A stretch of 42,875 bases of DNA from Acidobacteriaceae bacterium (GTDB taxonomy: Bacteria > Acidobacteriota > Terriglobia > Terriglobales > Acidobacteriaceae): positions 1 through 42,875 of the forward strand of contig JASHPM010000461.1 in NCBI GenBank assembly GCA_030038115.1, read 5' to 3'. The notes beneath the pieces are model-generated. The model saw only the letters and a program-made list of their open reading frames with translations. It did not search any database and was not told where the DNA came from. Positions 1-38,224 of this stretch are shown piece by piece (positions within the stretch are counted from its first letter, which is position 1; every line of letters starts with the position of its first letter). Made by a program: the position numbers and the translations under genes.

Positions 1-1155
1 TTCAATCCCACGCAGTTTGATCCTGACCAATGGATGCAGGCCATTCGCGCGGCGGGCGCGAAGTACGTGATCCTCGTCGCGAAACATCACGACGGCTTTT
101 GCCTCTGGCCGACCGCCCAGACTGACTACAGCGTTAAGGCCAGCCCATGGGAGGGAGGGAAAGGCGATGTGGTGGGCGATGTCGCACGAGCCGCGCGCAA
201 AAATGGGCTGCGCTTTGGGATTTACCTGTCGCCCTGGGATCGGCACGATCCGCGCTACAACGATGCCGCCGCCTATGATCGGTATTACAACGCGGAGCTT
301 GAGGAACTGGCACAGAACTATGGCGATCTTGTGGAGTTCTGGCTGGACGGCGCCGGCAGCGCGGGTCACGTCTACGACTTCAGGAAAATCATCGAGACCC
401 TGCGCACGTATCAACCCAACACCACTGTCTTTGCCGATACCGCGTTGTTTGAGTATGGCGACGCGCGCTGGGTGGGGAATGAGGACGGCCGTGTCCCGTA
501 CGAGAACTGGAATGTGATCGATCGCCACAGCTATTTGCGCTGGCGCCCGGTGGAGGCGGACACCCCGCTGCACGCAGGCCACTGGTTCTGGCACCCGAAC
601 GACGAGGCCTCTCTCAAGAGCGTGGCGGAACTGCTGACCACCTGGGACGAAACCGTGGGCCATGGCGCACAGTTGATGCTGGGCCTCGCGCCCGACCGCC
701 GCGGTCTGCTGCCGGAGAGCGACGTTGCACGCCTGGAGGAATTTGGCGAAGCGCTGCGCGAGCGGTATGCTCACGATCTGGCATTGCAACATGCACCGGC
801 TCCAGCCGACGTTGCCGCCGCGCTCGATGGCGACCCTGACACATTCTGGTCGGCTCCCACTGGTTCTCACCATTCCACGCTGGAAGTCGGCTTCGATAAA
901 CCCTTGACGTTCAATCGCGCGCTCACCATGGAGTGGCTGAACGACGGGCAGCGCGTCGAGAAATACGCCATTGAGATCTGGACCGGCGGCGCCTGGAAAG
1001 CCGTTGCCTCCGCACAGGCCATCGGGCATGAGAAGATCGATATCTTCCCCGCGGTGACGGCCCGCCGCGTTCGACTCAACATTCTGTCCAGCACGAATGG
1101 CGCGGCCATTCGCGAATTCCAGCTCTACAACGTTCAGGATTCCGGAGGACGATGA
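1..1155 (+). CDS. Alpha-L-fucosidase (GH29), 5' end cut by window
   Basis: Hydrolyses terminal alpha-L-fucose from glycans, probably outside the cytoplasm. The reading frame is open from base 1, so the N-terminus and any signal peptide lie outside the window. The visible start reads FNPTQFDPDQWM, followed by KYVILVAKHHDGFCLWPT, the conserved KHHDGF block of GH29. The likely catalytic nucleophile is the Asp of EFWLDGAG (codon 346-348). After the TIM barrel, residues from about 260 of the visible part form a small beta-rich domain (DTFWSAPTG, ATMEW-like and VRLNIL strands) resembling an F5/8-type carbohydrate-binding domain, as in many bacterial GH29 enzymes. The stop lies 4 nt before the GTG of the GH20 gene, so the two are probably co-transcribed. 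Family assignment is firm; substrate linkage cannot be read from the sequence. Confidence 0.93.
   Translation, partial: FNPTQFDPDQWMQAIRAAGAKYVILVAKHHDGFCLWPTAQTDYSVKASPWEGGKGDVVGDVARAARKNGLRFGIYLSPWDRHDPRYNDAAAYDRYYNAELEELAQNYGDLVEFWLDGAGSAGHVYDFRKIIETLRTYQPNTTVFADTALFEYGDARWVGNEDGRVPYENWNVIDRHSYLRWRPVEADTPLHAGHWFWHPNDEASLKSVAELLTTWDETVGHGAQLMLGLAPDRRGLLPESDVARLEEFGEALRERYAHDLALQHAPAPADVAAALDGDPDTFWSAPTGSHHSTLEVGFDKPLTFNRALTMEWLNDGQRVEKYAIEIWTGGAWKAVASAQAIGHEKIDIFPAVTARRVRLNILSSTNGAAIREFQLYNVQDSGGR
1144..1148 (+). promoter_or_regulatory. Shine-Dalgarno that sets the GH20 start
   Basis: GGAGG lies inside the last codons of the fucosidase gene, 11 nt before the GTG at 1160. It favours that GTG over the in-frame ATG at 1097, which would overlap the fucosidase gene by 59 bases and place a charged stretch before the signal peptide. 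Confidence 0.6.
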
Positions 1156-1159
1156 GCAG

Positions 1160-3271
1160 GTGACAACCTTCCTGGGCGCCCGGCGCCCGCTGTTTCCTCT
1201 GTTTTGGATCGCCCTTGCGCTTTTCGCTGCTCCTCCGGCCGGCGCTTCGCCGCGTCCGCCGCTGATCCCGCAGCCGCGGGAGTTCGCCGCGCGCGAGGAT
1301 CTTTCGCTTGCCGGCGGTGTGCGCATTGCCGCGCCGGGCGGCGACGCGGAAGACCGCTTTGCCGCCGGGGATTTAAAAGACGAACTGAATGCGCGCGGCA
1401 TACGGATGCGCGAATCCGCCACCGCCGTGCACATCTATCTGTTACGCGATGACACCACGCTGGGACGTCAGGTCCTGCGCCGCGAAAAGTTGGCCTTCGA
1501 TGAAGCAATGCGACCTGAAGGCTACGTGCTGATCACGGACAAGCGCGACGTATTCGTGATTGCCCACACTGCCGCCGGAATTTTTTACGGCGTCCAGACA
1601 CTAATACAGCTGGTGCGGCCGGGCACCGGCAAACCGCGGCTGGCCGGCGCAGCGATCCGCGACTGGCCGGCCATGCGCTGGCGGGGCGTTCACGACGATT
1701 TGTCGCGCGGACCCCTGCCGACCATCGAATTCCAAAAGAAACAGATCCGCACCTTCGCCGCCTATAAGCTGAACGTCTACTCGCCCTACTTCGAAAACAC
1801 CATGCAGTACGCTTCTAACCCGCTGCCGGCGCTGCCTGGAGGGTCCATCTCCGCGGAGGATGCGAAGGCTTTGGTCGAGTACGCAGAGAAATATCACGTG
1901 ACCATCATCCCGGAACAGGAAGCCTTCGGGCATCTGCACAAAGTCCTCACATGGCAGCAATACGCGCCGCTGGCGGAGATTCCAAACGGCGCGGTGCTGG
2001 CGCCGGGGCAGCCCGGATCGATGCAGCTGATCGCACAGTGGTTCGATGAGCTGGCGACGATCTACCCCGGACCGTTTCTGCACATCGGCGCGGATGAAAC
2101 ATTCGAGTTAGGACAGGGGCAGACAGCGAACGATGTGAAGCAGCGCGGCCTGGGCGCGGTGTACATCGACTTCCTCTCCGGTATTCATCAGGCGCTCGCG
2201 CCGCTGCATCGACGCCTGCTCTTCTGGGGAGACGTGGCGATGAACAGCCCGGCGCTGGTGCCGCAGCTGCCCCGCGACATGATCGCTGTGGCGTGGCAAT
2301 ACGATCCCGAGCCGCAGGGATTTCACCGCTGGCTCGATCCCTACGCGAACGCCGGTATGGAAACCTGGGTTGCGCCCGGCGTGAATAACTGGAACCGCGT
2401 GTGGCCGGATTTCGACCTAGCTCTGCGCAATATTCAGGGATTCGTTGCCGACGGACAGAGCGCCGGCAGCACCGGCATGCTGAATACAGTCTGGGATGAC
2501 GACGGCGAGGGGCTGTTCCTTGAGGATTGGTATGCAGTTCTGTTTGGCGCGGCGGCCGCGTGGCAACCTGGCGCGAGCGACATCGCGCAGTTCCAGCATA
2601 ACTATGGAGCCGTCTTCCACGGTGATGCGACCGGCGACATCGATGAGGCGCAGCTGGCGCTGATCGCCGCGCATGAGGCGCTCGCACAAGCCGGCCTTGG
2701 CGACGCGCGCGATGCTTATTTCTGGATGGATCCCTGGAGTCCCGAGGGCCAGCAGATCGCAGCAAAGATTCGTCCGGTGGGTGCTGAAGTGCGCCTCGAT
2801 GCCGAGCGCGCCCTGACGCTGATCGCCCAGGCAAAGGCTGCCGGTCCCCTGCGTGAGGCAGACGCGCTGGACGCGATGGATCTGGGCGCCCGCCGCATCG
2901 ATTTCCTCGCCTTCAAATTCCAGACCGCGGATGAAATTGCCGATGCCTGGCGCCGCCTTTACGACGGGCAGAAGACTCCGGAGATTGCCGCGCACATATC
3001 GCGCGATCTCTGGAATCTCTCCGGCGTGGACGGCCGCTGCGAGGATCTGCGCGACGGATACAGCTACCTGGGTTCGCGCTTCAGCGATGTGTGGCTCATG
3101 GAGAATCGTCCGTTCTGGCTCAACATCGTGATGGCCCGATATGACGCGGCAGCTCAGTTGTGGGTCGAGCGCAGCCAGAAGATCGCCGCCGCGCGCGGCG
3201 AGTGGAACCAGCAGCACACTTTACCGGCTCCTGAAGAAATCGGCATTCCGCAGGCGCCTGCCACCCCCTGA
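1160..3271 (+). CDS. Beta-N-acetylhexosaminidase (GH20), exported
   Basis: Removes non-reducing beta-linked GlcNAc or GalNAc by substrate-assisted catalysis. The chosen GTG start gives 703 aa beginning with a signal peptide (hydrophobic core LFWIALALFAAPPAGA). The GH20b-type N-domain opens with PLIPQPREF and includes GYVLITDKRDVFVIAHTAAG and the pre-barrel GVQTLIQL segment. The TIM barrel carries WRGVHDDLSRG, IIPEQEAFGHLH and the catalytic Asp-Glu pair D312-E313 in HIGADETFELG. Trp-rich subsite strands include FWGDVAMN and LNTVWDDDGEGLF. It sits between the GH29 gene and a symporter gene in one plus-strand run. With the NamZ-like protein two genes on, it could provide the GlcNAc-releasing step usually done by NagZ (GH3) in Bacillus. 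That role is inferred; the target could also be chitin, host glycan or glycoprotein. Confidence 0.92.
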   Translation: MTTFLGARRPLFPLFWIALALFAAPPAGASPRPPLIPQPREFAAREDLSLAGGVRIAAPGGDAEDRFAAGDLKDELNARGIRMRESATAVHIYLLRDDTTLGRQVLRREKLAFDEAMRPEGYVLITDKRDVFVIAHTAAGIFYGVQTLIQLVRPGTGKPRLAGAAIRDWPAMRWRGVHDDLSRGPLPTIEFQKKQIRTFAAYKLNVYSPYFENTMQYASNPLPALPGGSISAEDAKALVEYAEKYHVTIIPEQEAFGHLHKVLTWQQYAPLAEIPNGAVLAPGQPGSMQLIAQWFDELATIYPGPFLHIGADETFELGQGQTANDVKQRGLGAVYIDFLSGIHQALAPLHRRLLFWGDVAMNSPALVPQLPRDMIAVAWQYDPEPQGFHRWLDPYANAGMETWVAPGVNNWNRVWPDFDLALRNIQGFVADGQSAGSTGMLNTVWDDDGEGLFLEDWYAVLFGAAAAWQPGASDIAQFQHNYGAVFHGDATGDIDEAQLALIAAHEALAQAGLGDARDAYFWMDPWSPEGQQIAAKIRPVGAEVRLDAERALTLIAQAKAAGPLREADALDAMDLGARRIDFLAFKFQTADEIADAWRRLYDGQKTPEIAAHISRDLWNLSGVDGRCEDLRDGYSYLGSRFSDVWLMENRPFWLNIVMARYDAAAQLWVERSQKIAAARGEWNQQHTLPAPEEIGIPQAPATP

Positions 3272-3280
3272 GATTCGCCA

Positions 3281-4807
3281 ATGCCTTTAACGCCACCCCA
3301 TCCGTCGCGTTTGCGCTTGATCGATCTTGCGCTGGTGGGCGCGTATCTCGCGGGCATTACCCTCTTCGGGCTTCGCTATCGCAAATCGGCCGGCCGCTCC
3401 CTGCGCTCCTACTTCCTTGCGGATCGCAATATCCCCTGGTGGGCTATCTCGCTTTCCATTGTCGCTGCGGAGACCAGCACCCTCACCATCATCAGCGTGC
3501 CGGGTTTGGCGTTTGCGGGCGACTTCGGATTCCTGCAAGTTGCACTCGGCTACCTGCTGGGGCGAATCGTGATCTGTTTTCTCTTCCTGCCGCGCTATTT
3601 CCGCGGCGAGCTTTTGACCGCGTATCAGCTTATCGGCCAGCGCTTCGGTCCGCGCCTGCATCGCTTCACGGCCGGATTGTTTTTGATCATGCGGGCCGCG
3701 GCGGAGGGCGTGCGCGTCTTTGCAGTCGCCATCGTCGTGGGTCTCGCCATCGGAACGGGAGACGTGGCGTCGATCGCAATCCTTTCCGCGCTGACGCTGC
3801 TGTACACGTTTGAAGGTGGCATGGCCGCGGTAATCTGGACCGACGTAGTGCAGATGTTCCTGTATGTGGGTGGATCGCTGGTGGCGCTTGCGACCGTCTG
3901 CCACAACATCCCCGGCGGATGGAGCGCCCTGATTGCCGGCGCCTCTGCCGCGCACAAGCTGACCATGCTGCATTTTTCATGGTCCGTTACGGAGACGTAC
4001 ACCTTTCAGGCCGGCCTTCTCGGCGGATGTTTCCTGACCATGGCGAGTCACGGGACGGATCAGCTGATGGTGCAGCGGTTGCTGGCAGCAAAAAACCTGC
4101 GCGACTCTCGCGTGGCACTGCTGGCGAGCGGCGTGTTGATCTTTTTTCAATTCGCGCTGTTTCTGCTGATCGGAGCAGGTCTCTTCGTTTATTACAGAAG
4201 TGTGGGCAGCGCACCGAGCCTGGGAGCGGATCGCATCTTTCCCGCGTTTATCGTGCAGCAGATGCCCGCCGGCATCGCCGGGCTGATGATCGCGGCGATC
4301 CTTGCCGCAGCCATGTCGAATCTGAGCGCCGCTCTCAACTCGCTGGCTTCGACCGCGGTGGTGGACTTTTACCTGCCGCGATACCCGGACATTTCGGAGC
4401 GCATGCGCACCCGGCTTTCACGCCTGATGACGGTCGTGTGGGCTGCGGTGCTGTTCGCTCTGGCGATGTTCTCGCGCAGCGGCGGCCACGTGGTCGAGAT
4501 TGGCCTCTCCATCGCCTCAGTCCTGTGGGGGGCGATGCTGGGCGTCTTCCTGCTGGGTACGCTCAGCCGGCGAGCCGGCGAGCGCGGAACGATGATCGGC
4601 ATGGCTGCGGGAGTTGCAATCAATCTGCTGCTGTGGCTCCAGCCGCATCCTTTGGCGGTCCCGTTTGCCGGCCGGACGCTGATCCTTCCAAAAATCGCCT
4701 GGACGTGGTGGGTGCTCATCGGATCCCTCGTGACCTGCGCAGTGGGATACACGGCAAGCCTGCTGTTTCCCGAGCCGGCGATTCCAGGTGAGGGGAGGGT
4801 GCGGTGA
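3281..4807 (+). CDS. Sodium:solute symporter (SSS family)
   Basis: A 508-aa inner-membrane protein with about 13 hydrophobic segments, typical of the SSS/SGLT family, which couples Na+ entry to uptake of sugars, amino acids or vitamins. Family marks include SYFLADRNIPWWAISLS near residue 45, AAETSTLTIISVPG in the first discontinuous helix, GGMAAVIWTDVVQMFLYVGG near residue 180 and ASHGTDQLMVQRLLAAKN near residue 260. It starts 9 nt after the GH20 stop and overlaps the next gene by 4 nt (GTGA), so it belongs to the same operon. Context suggests import of a monosaccharide or amino sugar released by the neighbouring glycosidases. Substrate cannot be assigned from sequence alone. Confidence 0.92.
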   Translation: MPLTPPHPSRLRLIDLALVGAYLAGITLFGLRYRKSAGRSLRSYFLADRNIPWWAISLSIVAAETSTLTIISVPGLAFAGDFGFLQVALGYLLGRIVICFLFLPRYFRGELLTAYQLIGQRFGPRLHRFTAGLFLIMRAAAEGVRVFAVAIVVGLAIGTGDVASIAILSALTLLYTFEGGMAAVIWTDVVQMFLYVGGSLVALATVCHNIPGGWSALIAGASAAHKLTMLHFSWSVTETYTFQAGLLGGCFLTMASHGTDQLMVQRLLAAKNLRDSRVALLASGVLIFFQFALFLLIGAGLFVYYRSVGSAPSLGADRIFPAFIVQQMPAGIAGLMIAAILAAAMSNLSAALNSLASTAVVDFYLPRYPDISERMRTRLSRLMTVVWAAVLFALAMFSRSGGHVVEIGLSIASVLWGAMLGVFLLGTLSRRAGERGTMIGMAAGVAINLLLWLQPHPLAVPFAGRTLILPKIAWTWWVLIGSLVTCAVGYTASLLFPEPAIPGEGRVR

Positions 4808-7248
4808 ACCGCGCCGCTCGAGCATCCGTTTTGTTGCTGGCCCTCGCCGTCTCCGCATGTTCGGCGGGAGCGCAAAGCGACTTCTCGTCCATCGACTCGA
4901 TCGTCAACCGTGCCGTCGACGATCATCAGCTTCCGGGAGCGGTGGTGGTCGTCGGGCATGACGGCAAAGTCGTCTTTCGCCGGGCGTACGGCATGCGCTC
5001 GCTCGAACCAACGCAGGAGCGGATGACGCTCGACACCATCTTCGACATGGCGTCACTTACGAAGTGCCTGGCCACCGCGACAGCCGTGATGCAGCTGTAT
5101 GAGCAGGGCAAGATTGGACTGAACGACCCCGTTGCGAAATATCTGCCCGATTTCGCGGCCAATGGAAAACAGGACATCACCATTCGGAATTTGCTGACCC
5201 ACTATTCCGGGCTGCCGCCCGACCTGCCGCTCGACGAGCCGTGGGAGGGAAAAGAAGAAGGCTATCGACGCGCGTTTGCCATTACTCCACTGCGTCCGCC
5301 AGGTGAGCAGTTTCTTTACAGCGACATCAACTTCATCGTGCTGGGAGCGCTGGTGGAGAAGCTCTCCGGCATGACGCTGGATGAGTACACACAGCGCTTC
5401 ATCGTGGATCCGCTGGGCCTCACGCATACGCAATTCCTCCCGCCTGCGTCGTGGATCCCGCGCATCGCGCCGACGGAATACGAACACGACCCCATCTCCT
5501 CCGGCGTGCCAGGATCGAAGACGTTTCCCGGCGACGTGATGCTGCGTGGGGTGGTACACGATCCAACTTCGCGGCGCATGGGTGGCGTCGCAGGCCACGC
5601 GGGACTCTTCAGCACCGCGGAAGATCTGGCGATCTACGCGCAAAGCCTGCTGGATCGGCTAGCGGGCCGACCCAGCAAATTTCCTCTGTCGCGGATCGTG
5701 CTCCAGAAGATGGTCGCCCCTGAGCAGCCGGCGACCGGGACCGCGCTGCGCGGCTTTGGCTGGGACATCGACTCGCCGTACTCCAGCAATCGCGGCACGC
5801 TGTTCCCAGTTGGCTCCTTTGGCCACACCGGGTTCACCGGAACATCCCTTTGGATGGACCCGGTGAGTGACAGCTATGTGATTGTGCTGGCCAATTCGGT
5901 TCATCCGCACGGGCCGAAGAGCATCACGGCACTGCGCGGCAGGGTCGCCGACGCGGCCGCGGTGGCACTCGGCATTCACGCAGATGGCGGCGCGCTGGCG
6001 GCACACATCACCGGCTACAACGAATCGCTGAGCGGGATGCGCCGTTGGCCTGTCCGCAATGGGGAGGTGAAGACCGGCATCGACGTGCTGGAGGCCGATC
6101 ATTATAGGGAGCTCGCAGAGATGGCTCGCCGTCACGGCGGCAAACTGCGGCTCGGATTGTTAACGAATCAAACCGGAGTCGATGCCGAGGGCCGACGCAC
6201 CATTGACATCCTCCATCAGGATGCGGAACAGGCGGTGCCTGGGCTGACTCTGGACACATTGTTCAGCCCCGAACATGGCATCGGCGGCGCGTACGACGAG
6301 CCCAACGTACCGAACTCTACCGATCCTGCGACGGGACTGCCGGTGATGAGCCTATATGGGGCTAAAGATGCCGACCGTCGTCCCTCGCTCGCGTCACTGC
6401 GCAAACTGGACGCTGTCGGGATCGACTTGCAGGACGCAGGCGTGCGTTTCTACACCTACGAAGCCGTAGTTCGCTACTTTCTGGAGGCCGCGGCGCAGAC
6501 GGGAACGGAGATCATCGTGCTGGATCGTCCTGATCCGATCGACGGGTCATTTGTACAGGGGCCGATGTCCGATCCCGGCACGGAGAGTTACGTCAACTCC
6601 ATTCCGATTCCGGTGCGGCATGGCATGACGCTGGGCGAGCTGGCGCGCTACGACACGCAACAGCTGCAGTTACAAACCCAACTGACCGTGTTGCCGATGC
6701 AGGGCTGGCAGCGTGGGGACTGGTTCGACTCGACGGACCTGATATGGGTGAATCCGTCGCCGAATCTGCGCGATCTGGAAGAGGCGACGCTCTATCCGGG
6801 AGTCGGCCTGGTGGAGACCACGAACATTTCCGTTGGACGCGGCACAGATACGCCGTTCGAGATTCTGGGTGCGCCGTGGATTGACGCTCGCGCTCTCGCA
6901 CAGTTCCTGAATCGCCGCCAGCTTCCAGGATTGCGGTTCGTTCCCGTGCAGTTCACACCCGAGAAGCCCTATCCCTATGCTGGAGACGTCTGCCGCGGTG
7001 TGCGCATCCTGGTAATGGATCGAAATGTTCTGAACGCACCGGAGCTGGGCATTGAGATCGCCTCGGCTCTGCGCCATCTGTACCCGGAACAATTTGAACT
7101 GCACAAGATCAACACGCTGCTCGCGAATCGCGCCGTCCTTGACGCTATCGCCGCCGGGCGGGATCCGCAGCGCATCGCGGAAGACTGGCGTCCGGCGCTC
7201 GACGCCTTCGAGCTGCAGCGAGCGAAGGCGCTGATTTACGCGCCCTGA
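4804..7248 (+). CDS. Lipoprotein fusion: AmiE-like serine amidase + NamZ-like DUF1343 exo-muramidase
   Basis: One 814-aa chain joins two enzymes that are separate neighbours in the Bacillus subtilis MurNAc-recycling cluster (amiE and namZ). The N-terminus is a lipoprotein signal with lipobox V16-S-A-C19. Residues about 30-400 are a serine beta-lactamase/class C fold: nucleophile motif S84-L-T-K87, a YSDIN motif at 172-176, the GGVAGHAGLFSTAEDLA block near 260 and HTG at 341-343. Residues about 425-814 are DUF1343 (NamZ, GH171), with GLLTNQTGVD, the FSPEHG block (PEHG at 489-492), DLQDAGVRFYTYEA, VLDRPDPI, WVNPSPNLRDLEEATLYPG and the NISVGRGTDTPFE block. NamZ removes MurNAc from non-reducing ends and AmiE strips peptides from MurNAc. 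The GTG start overlaps the symporter stop (GTGA), with GGAGG at 4794-4798. Domain calls are firm; activity is inferred from the families. Confidence 0.9.
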   Translation: MNRAARASVLLLALAVSACSAGAQSDFSSIDSIVNRAVDDHQLPGAVVVVGHDGKVVFRRAYGMRSLEPTQERMTLDTIFDMASLTKCLATATAVMQLYEQGKIGLNDPVAKYLPDFAANGKQDITIRNLLTHYSGLPPDLPLDEPWEGKEEGYRRAFAITPLRPPGEQFLYSDINFIVLGALVEKLSGMTLDEYTQRFIVDPLGLTHTQFLPPASWIPRIAPTEYEHDPISSGVPGSKTFPGDVMLRGVVHDPTSRRMGGVAGHAGLFSTAEDLAIYAQSLLDRLAGRPSKFPLSRIVLQKMVAPEQPATGTALRGFGWDIDSPYSSNRGTLFPVGSFGHTGFTGTSLWMDPVSDSYVIVLANSVHPHGPKSITALRGRVADAAAVALGIHADGGALAAHITGYNESLSGMRRWPVRNGEVKTGIDVLEADHYRELAEMARRHGGKLRLGLLTNQTGVDAEGRRTIDILHQDAEQAVPGLTLDTLFSPEHGIGGAYDEPNVPNSTDPATGLPVMSLYGAKDADRRPSLASLRKLDAVGIDLQDAGVRFYTYEAVVRYFLEAAAQTGTEIIVLDRPDPIDGSFVQGPMSDPGTESYVNSIPIPVRHGMTLGELARYDTQQLQLQTQLTVLPMQGWQRGDWFDSTDLIWVNPSPNLRDLEEATLYPGVGLVETTNISVGRGTDTPFEILGAPWIDARALAQFLNRRQLPGLRFVPVQFTPEKPYPYAGDVCRGVRILVMDRNVLNAPELGIEIASALRHLYPEQFELHKINTLLANRAVLDAIAAGRDPQRIAEDWRPALDAFELQRAKALIYAP

Positions 7249-11684: not shown

Positions 11685-11778
11685 GGAGAGATGGCCGAGA
11701 GGCTGAAGGCGGCGGTTTGCTAAACCGTTATAGGGTTGAAAAGCTCTATCGAGGGTTCGAATCCCTCTCTCTCCGCCA
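11685..11778 (+). tRNA. tRNA-Ser (anticodon GCT)
   Basis: Reads AGC/AGU serine codons. The 7-bp acceptor stem pairs GGAGAGA (11685-11691) with TCTCTCC (11768-11774). The anticodon stem GCGGT/ACCGT (11712-11716 and 11724-11728) encloses loop 11717-11723 with anticodon GCT at 11719-11721. A long variable arm (class II tRNA) follows, then the T-arm GAGGG-TTCGAAT-CCCTC (11751-11767), discriminator G 11775 and an encoded CCA (11776-11778). An IS remnant begins about 150 nt downstream, and a 28-bp near-copy of bases 11717-11744 occurs inverted at 35679-35706. Confidence 0.97.
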
Positions 11779-11929: not shown

Positions 11930-12247
11930 TCAGAAGGGCTCGGGAACCTCGGCCCAGCCCAGCATCGGTCGCGAGCAGAACTCCGGCCTGTTGTCCGAAC
12001 GCAGACTCTCTGGACGACCATGCTCGGCGATCACTTCGTCCAGCACGCGCGTCACCAGACCACGGCCCAAACTCACGTCCGGTTCCAGCGCCAGGCACTC
12101 CCGCGTGAACACGTCGACTACGCTGAGGATGCGCACCATCCGTCCGTTCGCCAGCCCGTCCACGATGAAATCCATCGCCCACTCCTGGTTCGGTTGTGCC
12201 AGCCGCATCGAAGCCACCCCGGCCCGCTGCGACAAGACAATCCTGAA
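11930..12247 (-). mobile_element. IS3-family transposase (OrfB, rve domain) remnant
   Basis: Encodes only the central part of an IS3/IS407-type DDE transposase: PNQEWAMDFIVDGLANG with the first catalytic Asp, VVDVFTRECLALEPDVSL, then VIAEHGRPESLRSDNRPEF with the second Asp (family norm DNGPEF, here Gly changed to Arg). The frame then leaves family sequence at WAEVPEPF and stops, so the third catalytic residue (Glu), the C-terminal part, OrfA and both terminal repeats are missing. It is certainly inactive. It lies between tRNA-Ser and the first CRTAC1 gene, marking a past insertion at the edge of the accessory block. The upper boundary is approximate. Confidence 0.8.
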
Positions 12248-12283
12248 GTTGAACACACCGGGAAGAACAACGAAGCGCACGCC

Positions 12284-32580: not shown

Positions 32581-35565
32581 ATGAAAACGGTATCACGCCG
32601 GGACATGTTGAAGGCCGGGTTGCTTGCACCCGTGGCGGCGGCGGCACAGGGGATGGGTCCAATCGGCGCGGTTGCGATGCATGCGGCGGCGCAACAGGAA
32701 CCGGCGCCGCTTGCAATGGGTGAGCGCGCCGAATCCGTAAATCCAGGCGCAGGGCGCGAGCGGCTTCTCCTGGATTTTGGGTGGCGCTTCCACTTCGGCA
32801 ACGCGAACGATCCCGCTATGGATTTCGGCTTTGGGGGCGGGCGCGGCGGCAATTTCCAGAAGACGGGCGGCTTTATTGCTGCCAGCTCGCTGGCCTTCGA
32901 CGACGGCGACTGGCGCGAGGTGGATTTGCCGCACGACTGGGCGATCGAGCTGCCTTTCGAAAATGATCCGGCGCTGGCCAGCAAGGGATTTTATCCGCTG
33001 GGACGAAATTATCCCGAAACCAGCGTGGGCTGGTATCGGCGGGTGTTTGAGATTTCCGCTGCGGATGCGGGCAAGAGAATCAGCCTGGAATTCGATGGCG
33101 CCTACCGCGAAACCATGGTGGTGTTCAACGGTTTCTACATCGGTGTGCACAGCGGCGGATACGATCCCTTCCACTTCGACGTAACCGACTTCGTCTATCC
33201 GGGCCGGAAGAACGTCCTGCTGGTGCGCGTGGATGCCACACTGAGCGATGGCTGGTTTTACGAGGGAGCGGGCATCTATCGCCACGTATGGCTGGTTAAA
33301 AAGCATCCCGTGCATGTGAAGCAGTGGGGAACATTTGTATCCGCTAACGTTACGAATGGCGACGCGACCCTCTCGATCCGAACCGAAGTGAACAACGACG
33401 GCAAGGATGTGCAAACCGCGCGCGTGACCTCAACGATTCTCGATCCCTCCGGTACGCCCGTAGCAAGAGCGGCGGCGCCTCCGGTGTCTATCGAATCAGG
33501 GGGAGACCAGACTTACGAGCAGACGATCGTGGTGGGACGGCCGCTGCTGTGGTCGCTCGAAGAGCGCAACCTCTACAAGCTGGTGACCGAAGTGAGCGCG
33601 CGGGGCGAGATCGTGGATCGCTGTGAAACGCCGTTTGGCATTCGCACCATCGAATTCAATCCGCACAAGGGGCTCTTTCTGAACGGCAAATCGGTCAAGG
33701 TGAAAGGCACCTGCAATCACCAGGATCACGCCGGGCTGGGTGCCGCGCTGCCCGATGCCGTCCAGTACTATCGCGTTCGCAAGTTGCAGGAGATGGGCTG
33801 CAACGCGATGCGCACCTCGCATAACCCGCCCACGCCGGAGCTGTTAAATGCGTGCGACGAACTGGGGATGCTGGTGTTCGACGAGACGCGGATGATGTCG
33901 TCGAATCCCGAGGGCCTGGCCCAGTTCGGCGATCTGGTGAAGCGCGACCGCAATCATCCCAGCGTCTTCATGTGGTCGATGGGAAATGAAGAAGGCCAGG
34001 CGAACACGGACACGGGACTGCACATCCTGACCGCGATGAAGGCTGTGGCCACCGCGTACGACGGCACCCGCCCTGTGTCCATCGCGCCTATCCGCGCGAT
34101 TGGCGTGGGCGGCCTGGTGGAGTGCGACGTGATGGGCTACAACTACATGGACCCGCAGGCCGAGACTTATCACAAGGCGCATCCCGACAAGCCGGTGATC
34201 GGTACGGAAACCGTGAGCGCGGTGGGCACGCGCGGGATTTACGTTACGGATTTCGAGAAGGGCTTCGTGGGCTCGTACGATCCTTACACCACGACCGGAC
34301 GTGCGTCGGCCGAAGGCTGGTGGCGCTTTTGCAATGCACAGGAGTGGCTGGCCGGAGGGTTCGTGTGGACGGGATTCGATTATCGCGGCGAGCCCTCGCC
34401 CAATGGATGGCCCAACATCAGCTCGCAGTACGGCATCATCGACACCTGCGGTTTCCCCAAGGATTCGTTCTTCTACTACCAGTCGTGGTGGACTGCGTCG
34501 CCCGTGCTGCACCTTTTTCCCCACTGGAACTGGCAAGGGATGGAAGGCAAAGAGATCGCGGTGTGGGTGTATTCGAATCTCGACAGCGTGGAGCTGTTTC
34601 TGAACGGAAAGAGCCTGGGCGCAAAGGATGTCAGGAAGGATTCACACGTGGCCTGGGTTGCCCCCTGGGCGCCCGGCGCGATCGAGGCTCGCGGCTCGAA
34701 AGGCGGCCAGGTGGTGATGACCGCGAAGCGCGAGACGACCGGTGCTGCCGTCAGCCTGGTGCTGAAACCCGACCGGCAGGAGTTGTCGGCCGATGGCGAG
34801 GACGTGGCTATGTTCACGGTCGGAGTGCAGGACGCCCAGGGCCGCGTCCTGCCCATAACCGACAACGTCGTGAAGTTTCGCGTCGCGGGGGCCGGAAAGC
34901 TGATTGGGGTCGGGAATGGAGATCCCACCGATCACGAATCGGACCGGGGCACTGTGCGCAAAGCGTTCTGCGGGTATTGCATGGCGCTGGTCCAGTCCGC
35001 GAAGACGGCGGGAAGCATTACCGTGGAGGCCGAGTCTGCGGGACTCACTGCAGCCAGCGCGACCATTCAGGCGAAAGAGGTGCCGCTGCGTCCGCAGATC
35101 GCCCCATGGAAGCGGGAGGTCCCGGTGGGCCCGGGCATCACGGGCCTGTGGAGACCGATCGCAGGTTCGAGCGGCGCGACTGGGCTGCTGGCATTCTTCG
35201 TCGGCGACGGGACGACTGTATTTACGCTCCGGCAGCAGGGAAGCACGCTCACGGGCAGCGTGGAGGGCGCGGGCGGCGGGTTCTTCGGCGGAAGCGATGC
35301 AGGCATCCCGATCACCGACGGCAAGGTGGATGGCAACAACGTCTATTTCAAAGCCGGAAACAACACGTACTCGGGAACGGTGGAGGGAGATCAGATCGAG
35401 TTGCAGCGCGCGGTGGAACTGGGCTTTCCATTGTCACAGCCAGAGGGGCCTCTGGGAGCGCGCCCGGCAGTTGGACCGCCGCCCGACGGATCGGATCCAT
35501 CGAGGAGTCCAAACATGCGATTCCCCACCAGCATATCGGTGGTTTTGCATCGGGTGGAGCGCTAA
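32581..35565 (+). CDS. Beta-galactosidase-type GH2 glycoside hydrolase, Tat-exported
   Basis: Retaining GH2 enzyme (beta-galactosidase/beta-glucuronidase class), 994 aa. The N-terminal Tat signal is S-R-R-D-M-L-K then an Ala-rich hydrophobic stretch. The sugar-binding jelly-roll contains FDDGDWREVDLPHDWAIE and YPETSVGWYRRVF, the Ig-like domain follows, and the TIM barrel starts with KVKGTCNHQDHAGLG. The acid/base is E470 in MGNEEGQ (codon 33988) and the nucleophile E543 in IGTETVSAVG (codon 34207). C-terminal DUF4982-like and Ig-like domains follow. The last part (about residues 855-950) is a small beta module with LTGSVEG, ITDGKVDGNNVYF and YSGTVEGDQIELQ strands, often appended to secreted enzymes in this phylum. 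GGAG lies 5 nt before the ATG, and a LacI-type operator consensus covers the first codons. It stands alone between the TPR gene and a broken gene. Confidence 0.92.
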   Translation: MKTVSRRDMLKAGLLAPVAAAAQGMGPIGAVAMHAAAQQEPAPLAMGERAESVNPGAGRERLLLDFGWRFHFGNANDPAMDFGFGGGRGGNFQKTGGFIAASSLAFDDGDWREVDLPHDWAIELPFENDPALASKGFYPLGRNYPETSVGWYRRVFEISAADAGKRISLEFDGAYRETMVVFNGFYIGVHSGGYDPFHFDVTDFVYPGRKNVLLVRVDATLSDGWFYEGAGIYRHVWLVKKHPVHVKQWGTFVSANVTNGDATLSIRTEVNNDGKDVQTARVTSTILDPSGTPVARAAAPPVSIESGGDQTYEQTIVVGRPLLWSLEERNLYKLVTEVSARGEIVDRCETPFGIRTIEFNPHKGLFLNGKSVKVKGTCNHQDHAGLGAALPDAVQYYRVRKLQEMGCNAMRTSHNPPTPELLNACDELGMLVFDETRMMSSNPEGLAQFGDLVKRDRNHPSVFMWSMGNEEGQANTDTGLHILTAMKAVATAYDGTRPVSIAPIRAIGVGGLVECDVMGYNYMDPQAETYHKAHPDKPVIGTETVSAVGTRGIYVTDFEKGFVGSYDPYTTTGRASAEGWWRFCNAQEWLAGGFVWTGFDYRGEPSPNGWPNISSQYGIIDTCGFPKDSFFYYQSWWTASPVLHLFPHWNWQGMEGKEIAVWVYSNLDSVELFLNGKSLGAKDVRKDSHVAWVAPWAPGAIEARGSKGGQVVMTAKRETTGAAVSLVLKPDRQELSADGEDVAMFTVGVQDAQGRVLPITDNVVKFRVAGAGKLIGVGNGDPTDHESDRGTVRKAFCGYCMALVQSAKTAGSITVEAESAGLTAASATIQAKEVPLRPQIAPWKREVPVGPGITGLWRPIAGSSGATGLLAFFVGDGTTVFTLRQQGSTLTGSVEGAGGGFFGGSDAGIPITDGKVDGNNVYFKAGNNTYSGTVEGDQIELQRAVELGFPLSQPEGPLGARPAVGPPPDGSDPSRSPNMRFPTSISVVLHRVER
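32582..32595. promoter_or_regulatory. Perfect LacI/CcpA-type operator consensus over the GH2 start codon
   Basis: TGAAAACGGTATCA fits TGWAANCGNTNWCA at every position. It begins at the T of the ATG and covers codons 1-5. A repressor bound here would block initiation or elongation. A one-mismatch site lies at the TonB receptor promoter. It could also be chance codon use. Confidence 0.35.
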
Positions 35566-35631
35566 TCGAGATCAACTCCCGATTGTGACAGCAACTCTGC
35601 TTTCATCACCCGAAGTGATCTCAATAGTCAA

Positions 35632-35904
35632 TTACAGGACACCGCATGGGACACTGGAAATACTCGCAATTGTGCCTCGCTTTTCAACCCTATGGCGGTT
35701 TAGCAATTCTCTCTCTTCCCCGGCTCCAGCGTAATCTTGAAATTCGATGACGAAATTGACCCCACCCGTGGTCATGTATGGCTCGCTGATCGCAGCGACA
35801 GCGGCCGCGAAACCCTTGTAGTGCTTTTCGTCCACCACATCGAACTCCAGGTAGACATGCGAGAAGGTTCCAGGAGCGAAGATGCCAGCCTGCGCTGTAT
35901 GCAT
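35632..35904 (-). pseudogene. 5' fragment of a DyP-type peroxidase gene
   Basis: The frame starts with MHTAQAGIFAPGTFSHVYLEFDV and continues with AISEPYMTTGGVNFVIEF. This is like the N-terminus of YfeX/DyP-type haem peroxidases (Q-x-GIFA-x-GT-x-SH-x-YLEFD, then EP-x-TT-x-GGVN). Family members run about 300 aa; here similarity ends after about 60 residues, near 35720, and the frame runs on through a 28-bp tRNA-Ser piece to a stop. The catalytic GxxDG block, distal Arg and proximal His are all missing, so no peroxidase can be made. The break marks a recombination junction. Family assignment rests on a short stretch. Confidence 0.5.
35679..35706 (-). repeat. 28-bp fragment of tRNA-Ser(GCT), inverted relative to the intact gene
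   Basis: On the minus strand, 26 of 28 bases match tRNA-Ser positions 11717-11744, from the first base of the anticodon loop through the 3' anticodon stem into the variable arm. The only differences are TT to CC at 11728-11729. Neither the 5' half nor the T-arm and acceptor are present, so it is not a tRNA gene. It sits at the end of the truncated DyP sequence. Confidence 0.9.
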
Positions 35905-35910
35905 GCCAGA

Positions 35911-35916
35911 AGTATA
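35911..35916 (-). promoter_or_regulatory. -10 box directly before the truncated DyP gene
   Basis: TATACT on the minus strand ends 6 nt before the ATG at 35904; TTAACT (4/6 to the -35 consensus) lies 18 nt further up. Transcription would begin at the start codon, giving a leaderless message. Confidence 0.35.
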
Positions 35917-36229
35917 GCGAGCACGTTGTCATAGAGTTAACGACACAGACGAGAGAAGCCACGAAGCAAGTCCACATTCTGACCGAGGTAACATGAATTT
36001 GGCCTATTTCGGACTTCAAAGAAAGTCGGTGACGAAATCCGGAATCAGAAGCGGCTGGTTCTATAGAGATCACGCGTCGAGTAGTGGCATATGCAACTAA
36101 AGAAGGATTGGGAGTAACACCTCTATTGGGTAGCATTTAGCTGACTCCGCGTGATTCCCCCAGGAAACGTGAGAGAAGTCCCTCGCTGCGAAGATTTCAC
36201 GCGAGTCAAACCTGTCTGAGAAGAGAATC
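35917..36229. other. Intergenic stretch without a recognisable gene
   Basis: About 310 bp of noticeably more AT-rich sequence between the broken DyP gene and the HD-GYP gene. Open frames here have no family similarity. The only candidate signals are the DyP promoter at its left edge and a weak promoter at 36108-36136. Confidence 0.5.
36108..36136 (+). promoter_or_regulatory. Weak promoter candidate for the HD-GYP/ABC operon
   Basis: TTGGGA (36108-36113), 17-nt spacer, TAGCAT (36131-36136); each hexamer matches the sigma-70 consensus at 4 of 6 positions. It lies 94 nt upstream of the GTG start. Confidence 0.25.
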
Positions 36230-38224
36230 GTGCCGACCCGTGTCAAGGCTCTCGTCGGGGTTGTTGTGGCTGGGGCCATCGCGAGTTTGTCCGTCGTTCG
36301 CGGGTATCCCGCACAGCACTGGATTTACTTCTCCGTTTATCTCGTCGTGATCCTTCTCAGCTCCGGCATGAAGGTTGCTATGCCAAAGAGCGAAGGGACC
36401 ATGTCAGTCAATTTCCCCTTCATCTTTCTGGGAATTCTTCAGCTCTCTCCAATTCAGGCGGTCTGCCTCGCAGTCTGCAGCGTGATCGCGCAGTGCCGAT
36501 TCCGAGTTGTAAAGTCGTTCACCATCGTTCAGATTCTCTTTAACGTTGCGAATGTCACAACGGCAACCACCCTCGCCTGGTGGACGTTTGCCGCCGTCAT
36601 TCGCGTACACGCGGAGAGTGCGCCGGTGCTGGCTCTCGCGGCCAGTGTCTACTTTCTGGCCAACACGGTTCCTGTAGCCGTGGTGCTGGGATGGGTCTCG
36701 GATACGTCGCCATTCATGCACTGGCGCCAGGAATTCCTGTGGTATCTGCCTTTTTATCTTGTGGGCGCCATGCTGGCGGTGCTGGCCGACTTCATCGGCA
36801 TCCATTTCGGCTGGCTCACTTCTCTGCTGTTGATCCCAATGGTCTACACAGTGTATCGGGCTTATTGCGCCCAGATGGCAATGGTGCACGACCGCGAAGA
36901 ACATATCCGGGAAGTTGAAGCGCTGCACATGCGTACCATCCAGGGTCTTTCGATGGCCATAGAAGCGAAGGACGAGGGCACGCACGATCACCTGATGCGG
37001 GTGCGTGTCTACGTTGAGGAACTCGGCAGGATCATGAACCTCGAGCCATCGCTGATCCAGGCGCTGCATACGGCGGCATTTCTCCACGACATCGGCAAGT
37101 TAGCGGTTCCGGAGTACATCATCAACAAGCCAGGCAAGCTTACTCCGGACGAATTCGAAAAGATGAAGATTCATCCTGTGGTGGGCGCCGAGATTCTGGA
37201 GCGGGTTAAATTCCCCTATCCGGTGGTTCCGATTGTCCGGGGTCACCACGAGGCGTGGGACGGCAGCGGGTATCCCGACGGCCTCAGGGGCGAAGAAATT
37301 CCAATTGGAGCGCGCATCCTGACCGTCGTCGACTGCTTCGACGCCCTCGCCTCCGAGCGCCCCTACCGGAGAGCGTTGCCGATTGAGGAAGCGATGGCTA
37401 TCGTCAGCAGCAAGGCAGGAGCCCAGTTCGACCCGGCGATTGTCCGGCTGCTGGCGACGCATTATCAGGAACTGGAGAAGCTGGCCTGCAAACGAAGCCG
37501 TGAGATCGAGCCACTCAAGACCGGTATCTTCGTCGAGCGCGGCGCAGCTCCAGGTGCGGGATTTGAAGCCGGTCAAACCAGCGTAGCGGCGGGGCCGGGC
37601 GGCATCCCCGCTGCTTCGGCTGCCCGGATGCGATCACGCTACAACTCGCTTTCAGCTCTTGCCTCCGCTGTTCGCAAGCTGGGCATCGTCTTCGAAGACC
37701 GCCGCACCGGCAAGTCTTTGGGGGTTCGCGATCTTAGTGCCATGATGTCTGCGTGCCTTCGGCCGCTGATCGCCTTCGACTGCTTTGCAGTTTTCCATAA
37801 GTGCAACGACAGCGCGATTCTGCTCTATAAGAACGGCCCCTGGGCCGAAGCCTTCTCCGATGGCCCTCTCCCGGTGGGAACAGGACTCTCCGGCTGGGTC
37901 CTCGAAAGCGGACACCCGATAATAAACGGAAATCCGACCGTCGAGAGAAGTCTGCTGACAGGAGCCGGGCCGTTCTCGGCAAATAGCTCGGCACTCTCCA
38001 TACCGCTCCTGGACTTAAGCGGTTCTATCTTTGGCGCTCTCACGCTCTATTCCCGTCACCCTGCGGCTTTCTCCAAAGAGCATCTGCTGATGCTGCAGGC
38101 GATTCAGGGCGAATTCACGCTGGCGCTGCAGAAGGCTCTTCCCGGCACGACCAAATCGCATCCGGTCGGCGAGCGCGTCGCGGACGCAGTTGAATCTCCA
38201 CTGGCAGGGCTAACCACGTCATGA
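36230..38224 (+). CDS. Membrane HD-GYP phosphodiesterase with C-terminal GAF domain
   Basis: A 664-aa protein predicted to degrade cyclic di-GMP (or a related cyclic dinucleotide) at the inner membrane. Residues about 5-215 contain about seven hydrophobic helices (a MASE-like sensor, family not identified). The HD-GYP domain spans about residues 235-415: HD pair H286-D287 in FLHDIGKLAVPEYIINKPG, then H339-H340-E341 and G347-Y348-P349 in HHEAWDGSGYPDGLRGEEI. These are the metal and signature residues expected for an active enzyme. Residues about 470-640 form a GAF domain (FDCFAVFHKCNDSAILLYKNG, PVGTGLSGWVLESGHPIING, LDLSGSIFGALTLY). The start is GTG, as no in-frame ATG precedes the membrane part. 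Its stop overlaps the first permease gene by 4 nt (ATGA), so signalling and transport genes are coupled. Confidence 0.9.
   Translation: MPTRVKALVGVVVAGAIASLSVVRGYPAQHWIYFSVYLVVILLSSGMKVAMPKSEGTMSVNFPFIFLGILQLSPIQAVCLAVCSVIAQCRFRVVKSFTIVQILFNVANVTTATTLAWWTFAAVIRVHAESAPVLALAASVYFLANTVPVAVVLGWVSDTSPFMHWRQEFLWYLPFYLVGAMLAVLADFIGIHFGWLTSLLLIPMVYTVYRAYCAQMAMVHDREEHIREVEALHMRTIQGLSMAIEAKDEGTHDHLMRVRVYVEELGRIMNLEPSLIQALHTAAFLHDIGKLAVPEYIINKPGKLTPDEFEKMKIHPVVGAEILERVKFPYPVVPIVRGHHEAWDGSGYPDGLRGEEIPIGARILTVVDCFDALASERPYRRALPIEEAMAIVSSKAGAQFDPAIVRLLATHYQELEKLACKRSREIEPLKTGIFVERGAAPGAGFEAGQTSVAAGPGGIPAASAARMRSRYNSLSALASAVRKLGIVFEDRRTGKSLGVRDLSAMMSACLRPLIAFDCFAVFHKCNDSAILLYKNGPWAEAFSDGPLPVGTGLSGWVLESGHPIINGNPTVERSLLTGAGPFSANSSALSIPLLDLSGSIFGALTLYSRHPAAFSKEHLLMLQAIQGEFTLALQKALPGTTKSHPVGERVADAVESPLAGLTTS

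Follow-up and report, generated by a model that had tools for sequence, protein, structure and literature searches.

An inverted fragment of tRNA-Ser(GCT) in an acidobacterial genome, a probable relic of an integrase attachment site

Islands integrated at tRNA genes are recognized by the presence of a tRNA gene together with a nearby fragment of itself, and the attP of the element carries a fragment of the tRNA. In the Islander table, anticodon-centred subsites are common (2083 of 3919 islands), and a minority of the islands (159 of 3919) is known to have 5′ fragments (PMC4383910). Integrase reading frames that cross attP are exemplified by Mx8 and SSV, both named in the same work. In Thermococcus, the integrase IntpTN3 drives inversion between tRNA sites; a tRNA segment is present there in inverted copies on a single chromosome, near a rearrangement, and the minimal site is 43 bp long (PMC5495485).

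The locus analyzed here resembles both systems in part. The window, that is, the whole stretch of 42,875 nucleotides from a draft genome of an Acidobacteriaceae bacterium, contains a tRNA-Ser(GCT) gene and, 24 kb away, an inverted 28-bp copy of a segment of it. As in the Islander islands, a tRNA gene is accompanied by its own fragment, the interval (24 kb) lies between the 2 and 200 kb that Islander accepts, and the fragment overlaps no protein domain. However, the interval contains no listed integrase match, the fragment is internal to the gene, and its orientation is inverted, three features that the Islander filters, as set out in PMC4383910, remove. The inverted copies near a rearrangement recall IntpTN3, whereas the copy has 28 bp instead of 43, the genome is bacterial, and the contig has no integrase among the matches listed. 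Moreover, an inversion of the type described for IntpTN3 (PMC5495485) would truncate the tRNA of the window: the part of the gene from the anticodon loop to the 3′ end has 62 bases, of which the fragment holds only 28, so that the gene would lose that end.

The intact tRNA-Ser(GCT) gene, the putative target, lies at 11685–11778 on the plus strand (ARAGORN; Rfam RF00005, 58.4 bits) and is the only tRNA gene that ARAGORN finds in the window. Upstream of it, the order glmS–PPase–permease is common to the congeners, whole or in part. The fragment (35679–35706, minus strand), read from 35706 to 35679, is identical to positions 11717–11744 at 26 of 28 bases. It corresponds to positions 33–60 of the 94 of the tRNA; its start coincides with that of the 7-base anticodon loop (TTGCTAA) and its end falls within the variable arm, as the initial annotation had described. 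The two mismatches are adjacent (TT in the tRNA, CC in the fragment) and separate identical runs of 11 and 15 bases. The annotation had also observed that the ACCGC of the fragment would pair better in the anticodon stem, and on reading the sequence the C of the fragment does replace a G-U pair by a G-C pair at the foot of that stem. Only two places in the window match the 28-mer with at most three mismatches, the tRNA and the fragment. None of 100 dinucleotide shuffles of the window gave such a match, a BLAST against the whole 4.9-Mb genome gives E = 6.5e-5, and a uniform-base count predicts 2.8e-7 such matches in the window, so that the 1e-4 put forward earlier was conservative. These figures exclude a chance origin, and the inverted copy is real, far beyond chance. 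The two minus-strand and one plus-strand open reading frames of at least 90 aa that run across the fragment match no Pfam family.

To judge from sequence comparison, the donor of the fragment is a tRNA-Ser(GCT) of the same or a very near genus. When the two mismatched positions are treated as open, the 28-mer occurs with at most two further mismatches in 11 of 61 genomes (10 of the 12 in the genus, including its own, plus G029), and with at most three in 8 of 399 genomes of the class, again including its own. All these places except the fragment read TT or TC at the open positions; the CC version was found nowhere else among the 61 or the 399 genomes. The exact CC 28-mer is also absent from the genome_contigs and viral_contigs collections, which may omit this genome or very near ones. 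A different tRNA-Ser allele, which had been proposed as the source, is accordingly rejected, and the simplest view is that the CC change arose within the relic or its attP. A phage donor is rejected as well, as the 28-mer with TT occurs in no viral contig. A 22-bp core does occur in six of them; according to ARAGORN, five contain the whole tRNA-Ser gene, and in the sixth (L171) the tRNA gene runs off the contig end. In none of the six does GTGTCCC/GGGACAC lie within 400 bases of the core.

Elements integrate at tRNA-Ser(GCT) in this acidobacterial genus. Integrases directly adjoin it in at least two congeners, on the 3′ side in G001, where the integrase frame starts about 100 bp after the tRNA, and on the 5′ side in G009. 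In the latter, the frame ends in the anticodon loop, with the TAA of GCTAA, which resembles the frames of Mx8 and SSV (PMC4383910), although it is a feature of the relative and not of the window. Contig C80 of G009 carries a displaced 5′ half of the tRNA, severed immediately past the loop, together with its native upstream side. In this G009 element (L042, 8241–9531; L150, 6728–6792), the 5′ half is the displaced one and the integrase frame enters the restored tRNA. Among the 3′ flanks of tRNA-Ser in 11 genomes (1.1 to 12 kb each), the pair G005 and G006 is the only one for which blastn finds matches of at least 80 bp. Visual comparison of G009 with G010 shows that some 50 bases immediately following the tRNA are also alike, in degenerate form; hence, these flanks are not wholly unrelated. 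The tRNA of G002 seemed short by about 28 bp, but the gap reads NN and the case was dropped.

A further integrase is found in G008 (L153, 253–1536), with an adjoining 26-bp 3′ fragment of tRNA-Ser, upstream of tig-clpP-clpX. The latter genes were considered as the native right neighbor of the tRNA and rejected, since neither nine stretches near tig nor contig C60 of G008 contain a tRNA gene. In these nine stretches (from the genome itself and eight congeners, that of G002 covering only 272 bases) there is neither a tRNA gene nor the 26-bp fragment; with G005 and G006 left out, the fragment occurs near tig only in contig C60 of G008. The HD-GAF and GH2 loci were likewise rejected as tRNA sites, as 16 stretches scanned contain no tRNA.

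The closest parallel to the window is found in G008. Two of its contigs, C99 (with the permease and the 5′ half of the tRNA) and C83, run into the core TTTGCTAAACCGTTATAGGG and end there, with their differences confined to the part 5′ of the anticodon loop, which is expected of a split tRNA. On C83 there is a gene for an N6 DNA methylase, together with a Methylase_S match that is weak and falls short of the Pfam cut-off. The two contigs part at TTTGCTAA, and the window fragment starts at TTGCTAA, the same edge within a base; the edge of the fragment is thus the edge of elements at tRNA-Ser, both in G008 and in G009, where the tRNA half on C80 breaks off directly behind the loop. The G008 site is split across the ends of draft contigs, and its full attachment site lies outside view. 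Among the 12 genomes of the genus, a shortened pattern of the core recurs at a second place only in G008 and in the genome of the window; the only match in G002 is a place with one mismatch on C180.

The resemblance to G008 extends beyond the core. Positions 35607–35654 (plus strand) contain a motif, made of GGACACC/GGGACAC repeats and AATAGTCAATTA, that we regard as a candidate arm-site region of an integrase. It is identical at 39 of 48 positions to a stretch of G008 that lies beside the tRNA core (C83, 88–135), and when the 82-base side that includes it is aligned to G008, the score is 30.6 for a shuffle mean of 11.2, with none of 2000 shuffles as good. Among the 61 genomes the motif is present in two, that of the window and G008. 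Among 150 genomes of the family, which do not include G008, it is again present in two, that of the window and G035, the latter match lying inside a coding gene and being probably a chance hit. The frame that contains it resembles PolX. A shorter form of the motif is found in 14 viral stretches that are unrelated by inspection and contain none of three short tRNA-core strings. The idea that GTGTCC repeats mark the arms of CP4-57-type integrases was not borne out on E. coli CP4-57. The bases 5′ of the window core do not resemble the G008 arm significantly (210 of 2000 shuffles do as well), and on its 3′ side there is no likeness to the tRNA beyond the 28 bases (1732 of 2000).

We think that positions 35607–35706 are probably the decayed attachment site of an element whose tyrosine integrase targeted the anticodon loop of tRNA-Ser(GCT). 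The link between the fragment and such attachment at the loop, made in the initial annotation, is upheld in that elements of congeners part there and G008 shares the adjacent motif. The attP of the element would have duplicated the tRNA, beginning with the loop, beside the arm sites of the integrase, and the integrase with most of the element would since have been lost. If both arms of attP had the motif, the site in the window would read arm-core-arm, the order of attP or of the junction in a tandem or circular form. A rearrangement, rather than the inversion of a captured island, would then have moved the site 24 kb away from the tRNA and into the opposite orientation. Several observations speak against the decayed site, two of them above all. 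The match ends in the variable arm, and is too short to restore the 3′ end of the gene, which a working attP or a displaced 3′ half should reach. The shortness of the copy leads us to classify the site as a relic instead of a working site, decay presumably accounting for the missing part. In addition, the motif lies on opposite sides of the core in the two genomes, 65 bp away on the 5′ side in G008 and 24 bp away on the 3′ side in the window. Further points against it are the weak likeness of the 5′ bases to the G008 arm, the split state of the G008 site, the near-absence of the motif from the 150 family genomes, an integrase listed beside the tRNA in no more than two genomes, and the lack of a listed integrase match in the contig.

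The contig of the window has no PF00589 integrase among the matches listed (E ≤ 0.001), whereas the rest of the genome has eight at this threshold, two of them on C490. For the five other integrase contigs, tRNA-Met and tRNA-Asp were found in the stretches of C5 and C283, and no tRNA in those of C52, C106, and C448. Because the genome is 91% complete, the integrase of the element may have been lost or may simply be unassembled.

The surroundings of the fragment are consistent with a disturbed region. The junction between the GH2 gene and the HD-GAF gene (35566–36229) has 664 bases with 50% GC, versus 60–62% in the flanking segments, and looks like an old rearrangement junction. It contains the motif, the tRNA fragment, a cut Dyp gene, and a scrap of another gene. 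The Dyp-type peroxidase gene (35739–35959, minus strand) is reduced to its first 56 codons plus 55 bp upstream and is 89% identical (196 of 221 positions) to an intact copy on contig C172 of the same genome, with a longest identical run of 27. The other scrap (51 bp, 35970–36020, plus strand) is 83% identical to a stretch of G051 that encodes the C-terminus of an ORF, with E = 2.7e-5 among the 61 genomes, which makes it weaker than the other scraps. In the 671 bases around the fragment, the copies of the tRNA and of Dyp are the only second matches within the genome. The right flank, which starts with the HD-GAF protein gene (36230–38224, plus strand), is on a contig other than that of the tRNA in G004, G007, G008, G009, and G010; these being drafts, a location on separate contigs points to distance without proving it. 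The reading frames upstream of it differ in each of the five.

The 24 kb between the tRNA and the fragment had been presented as a unit bracketed by the two. On present matches it is composite, not one unit, because its parts match different contigs of the congeners. Next to the tRNA there is debris of a transposase (11930–12280, minus strand; rve, PF00665, E = 1.8e-13), of which 270 bp (11947–12216) are 87% identical to contig C439 of G002. A block of CRTAC1, TPR, and TonB-type genes on both strands follows (12301–32310), and is collinear in G009 (C10, ~80% identity), G008 (C129), and G006 (C10) (~69–75% in both), with partial matches in others. In these three genomes a GH2 paralogue (~47–50% identity) is found within 7 kb of the block. 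The GH2 gene of the window (32581–35565, plus strand) is itself 89.6% identical over 3 kb to contig C85 of G008, where it has other neighbors. At the left end of the window, positions 34–7248 contain what we take to be a GH20/symporter/beta-lactamase-DUF1343-like cluster. This cluster adjoins glmS in the window, G005, and G006; in G009 it lies beside the inverted block, and its last gene is matched in the second half only.

That the block was captured at tRNA-Ser and later inverted, the fragment being a flipped attachment repeat, was first offered as one explanation for the locus. Integrases do adjoin tRNA-Ser in congeners, its 3′ flank varies, the fragment lies at a synteny junction, and in G009 (C10) the block and the GH20-symporter cluster have opposite relative orientations to those in the window, which indicates that rearrangement has occurred in the genus. 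However, there is no tRNA core in the examined stretch of that contig, nor beside the block in those of G008 (C129) and G006 (C10), and nothing seen links the G009 rearrangement to the sites of the tRNA and the fragment. Furthermore, in no examined stretch other than the window is the block at tRNA-Ser, in either orientation, its content matches separate contigs of congeners, the fragment reaches neither end of the tRNA, and the contig lacks an integrase among the matches listed. The comparison with congeners that had been suggested thus revealed integrases at tRNA-Ser and rearrangement within the genus, but not an inversion of the block between the tRNA and the fragment, and we regard capture followed by inversion as very improbable. 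An artefact joining unrelated contigs at the tRNA repeat is highly unlikely. The draft is fragmented (568 contigs), the flanks are on separate contigs in relatives, and the adjoining Dyp stretch has a second genomic copy; yet the identical runs, at most 15 bases for the tRNA and 27 for Dyp, are short for the usual overlaps of assembly, and the 671 bases around the fragment have otherwise no second match in the genome.

Ectopic debris of a tRNA is a more substantial alternative, though an unlikely one. The fragment would then be a scrap from a break or from a decayed duplicate, without any integrase, and its boundary at the loop would be a coincidence. This would fit with the presence of at least two other scraps in the junction, with the internal position of the fragment, and with the 50 bp on its 5′ side, which hint at likeness to the 5′ end of the tRNA (98 of 2000 shuffles as good for the G008 flank, 208 of 2000 for that of the genome itself). 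It leaves to chance that the fragment starts within a base of the G008 edge, in the loop where the G009 5′ half is cut, and that the adjacent motif recurs beside the G008 tRNA core. Finally, the high likeness to a tRNA over 28 bases could reflect a functional RNA or a regulatory piece, such as a tRNA mimic or an antisense RNA, which is extremely unlikely. At the gathering cut-off, Rfam matches only the tRNA-Ser, and the folding z-scores of the fragment region (−0.13 for 91 nt, −1.11 for 46 nt) contrast with −3.11 for the tRNA. There is no terminator-like site, there is one promoter-like site versus 0.5 expected, and except for the contig end of G008 no congener has a second copy.

As a decayed attachment site, the inverted scrap of tRNA is explained by the scarring left by mobile elements and is ordinary in kind. 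It also calls for caution, as a tRNA gene and its fragment do not by themselves delimit an island. By analogy with the integrase of Thermococcus, attachment-site relics of tRNA-Ser elements could be endpoints of large rearrangements, with integrases shuffling core and accessory loci between the tRNA and attP-like relics; the 3′ fragment of tRNA-Ser with its integrase at tig-clpP-clpX in G008 would be a second possible case. We consider this very improbable. If such relics do prove to be rearrangement endpoints, a link would be established between integrases and the way in which the genus has lost its gene order.
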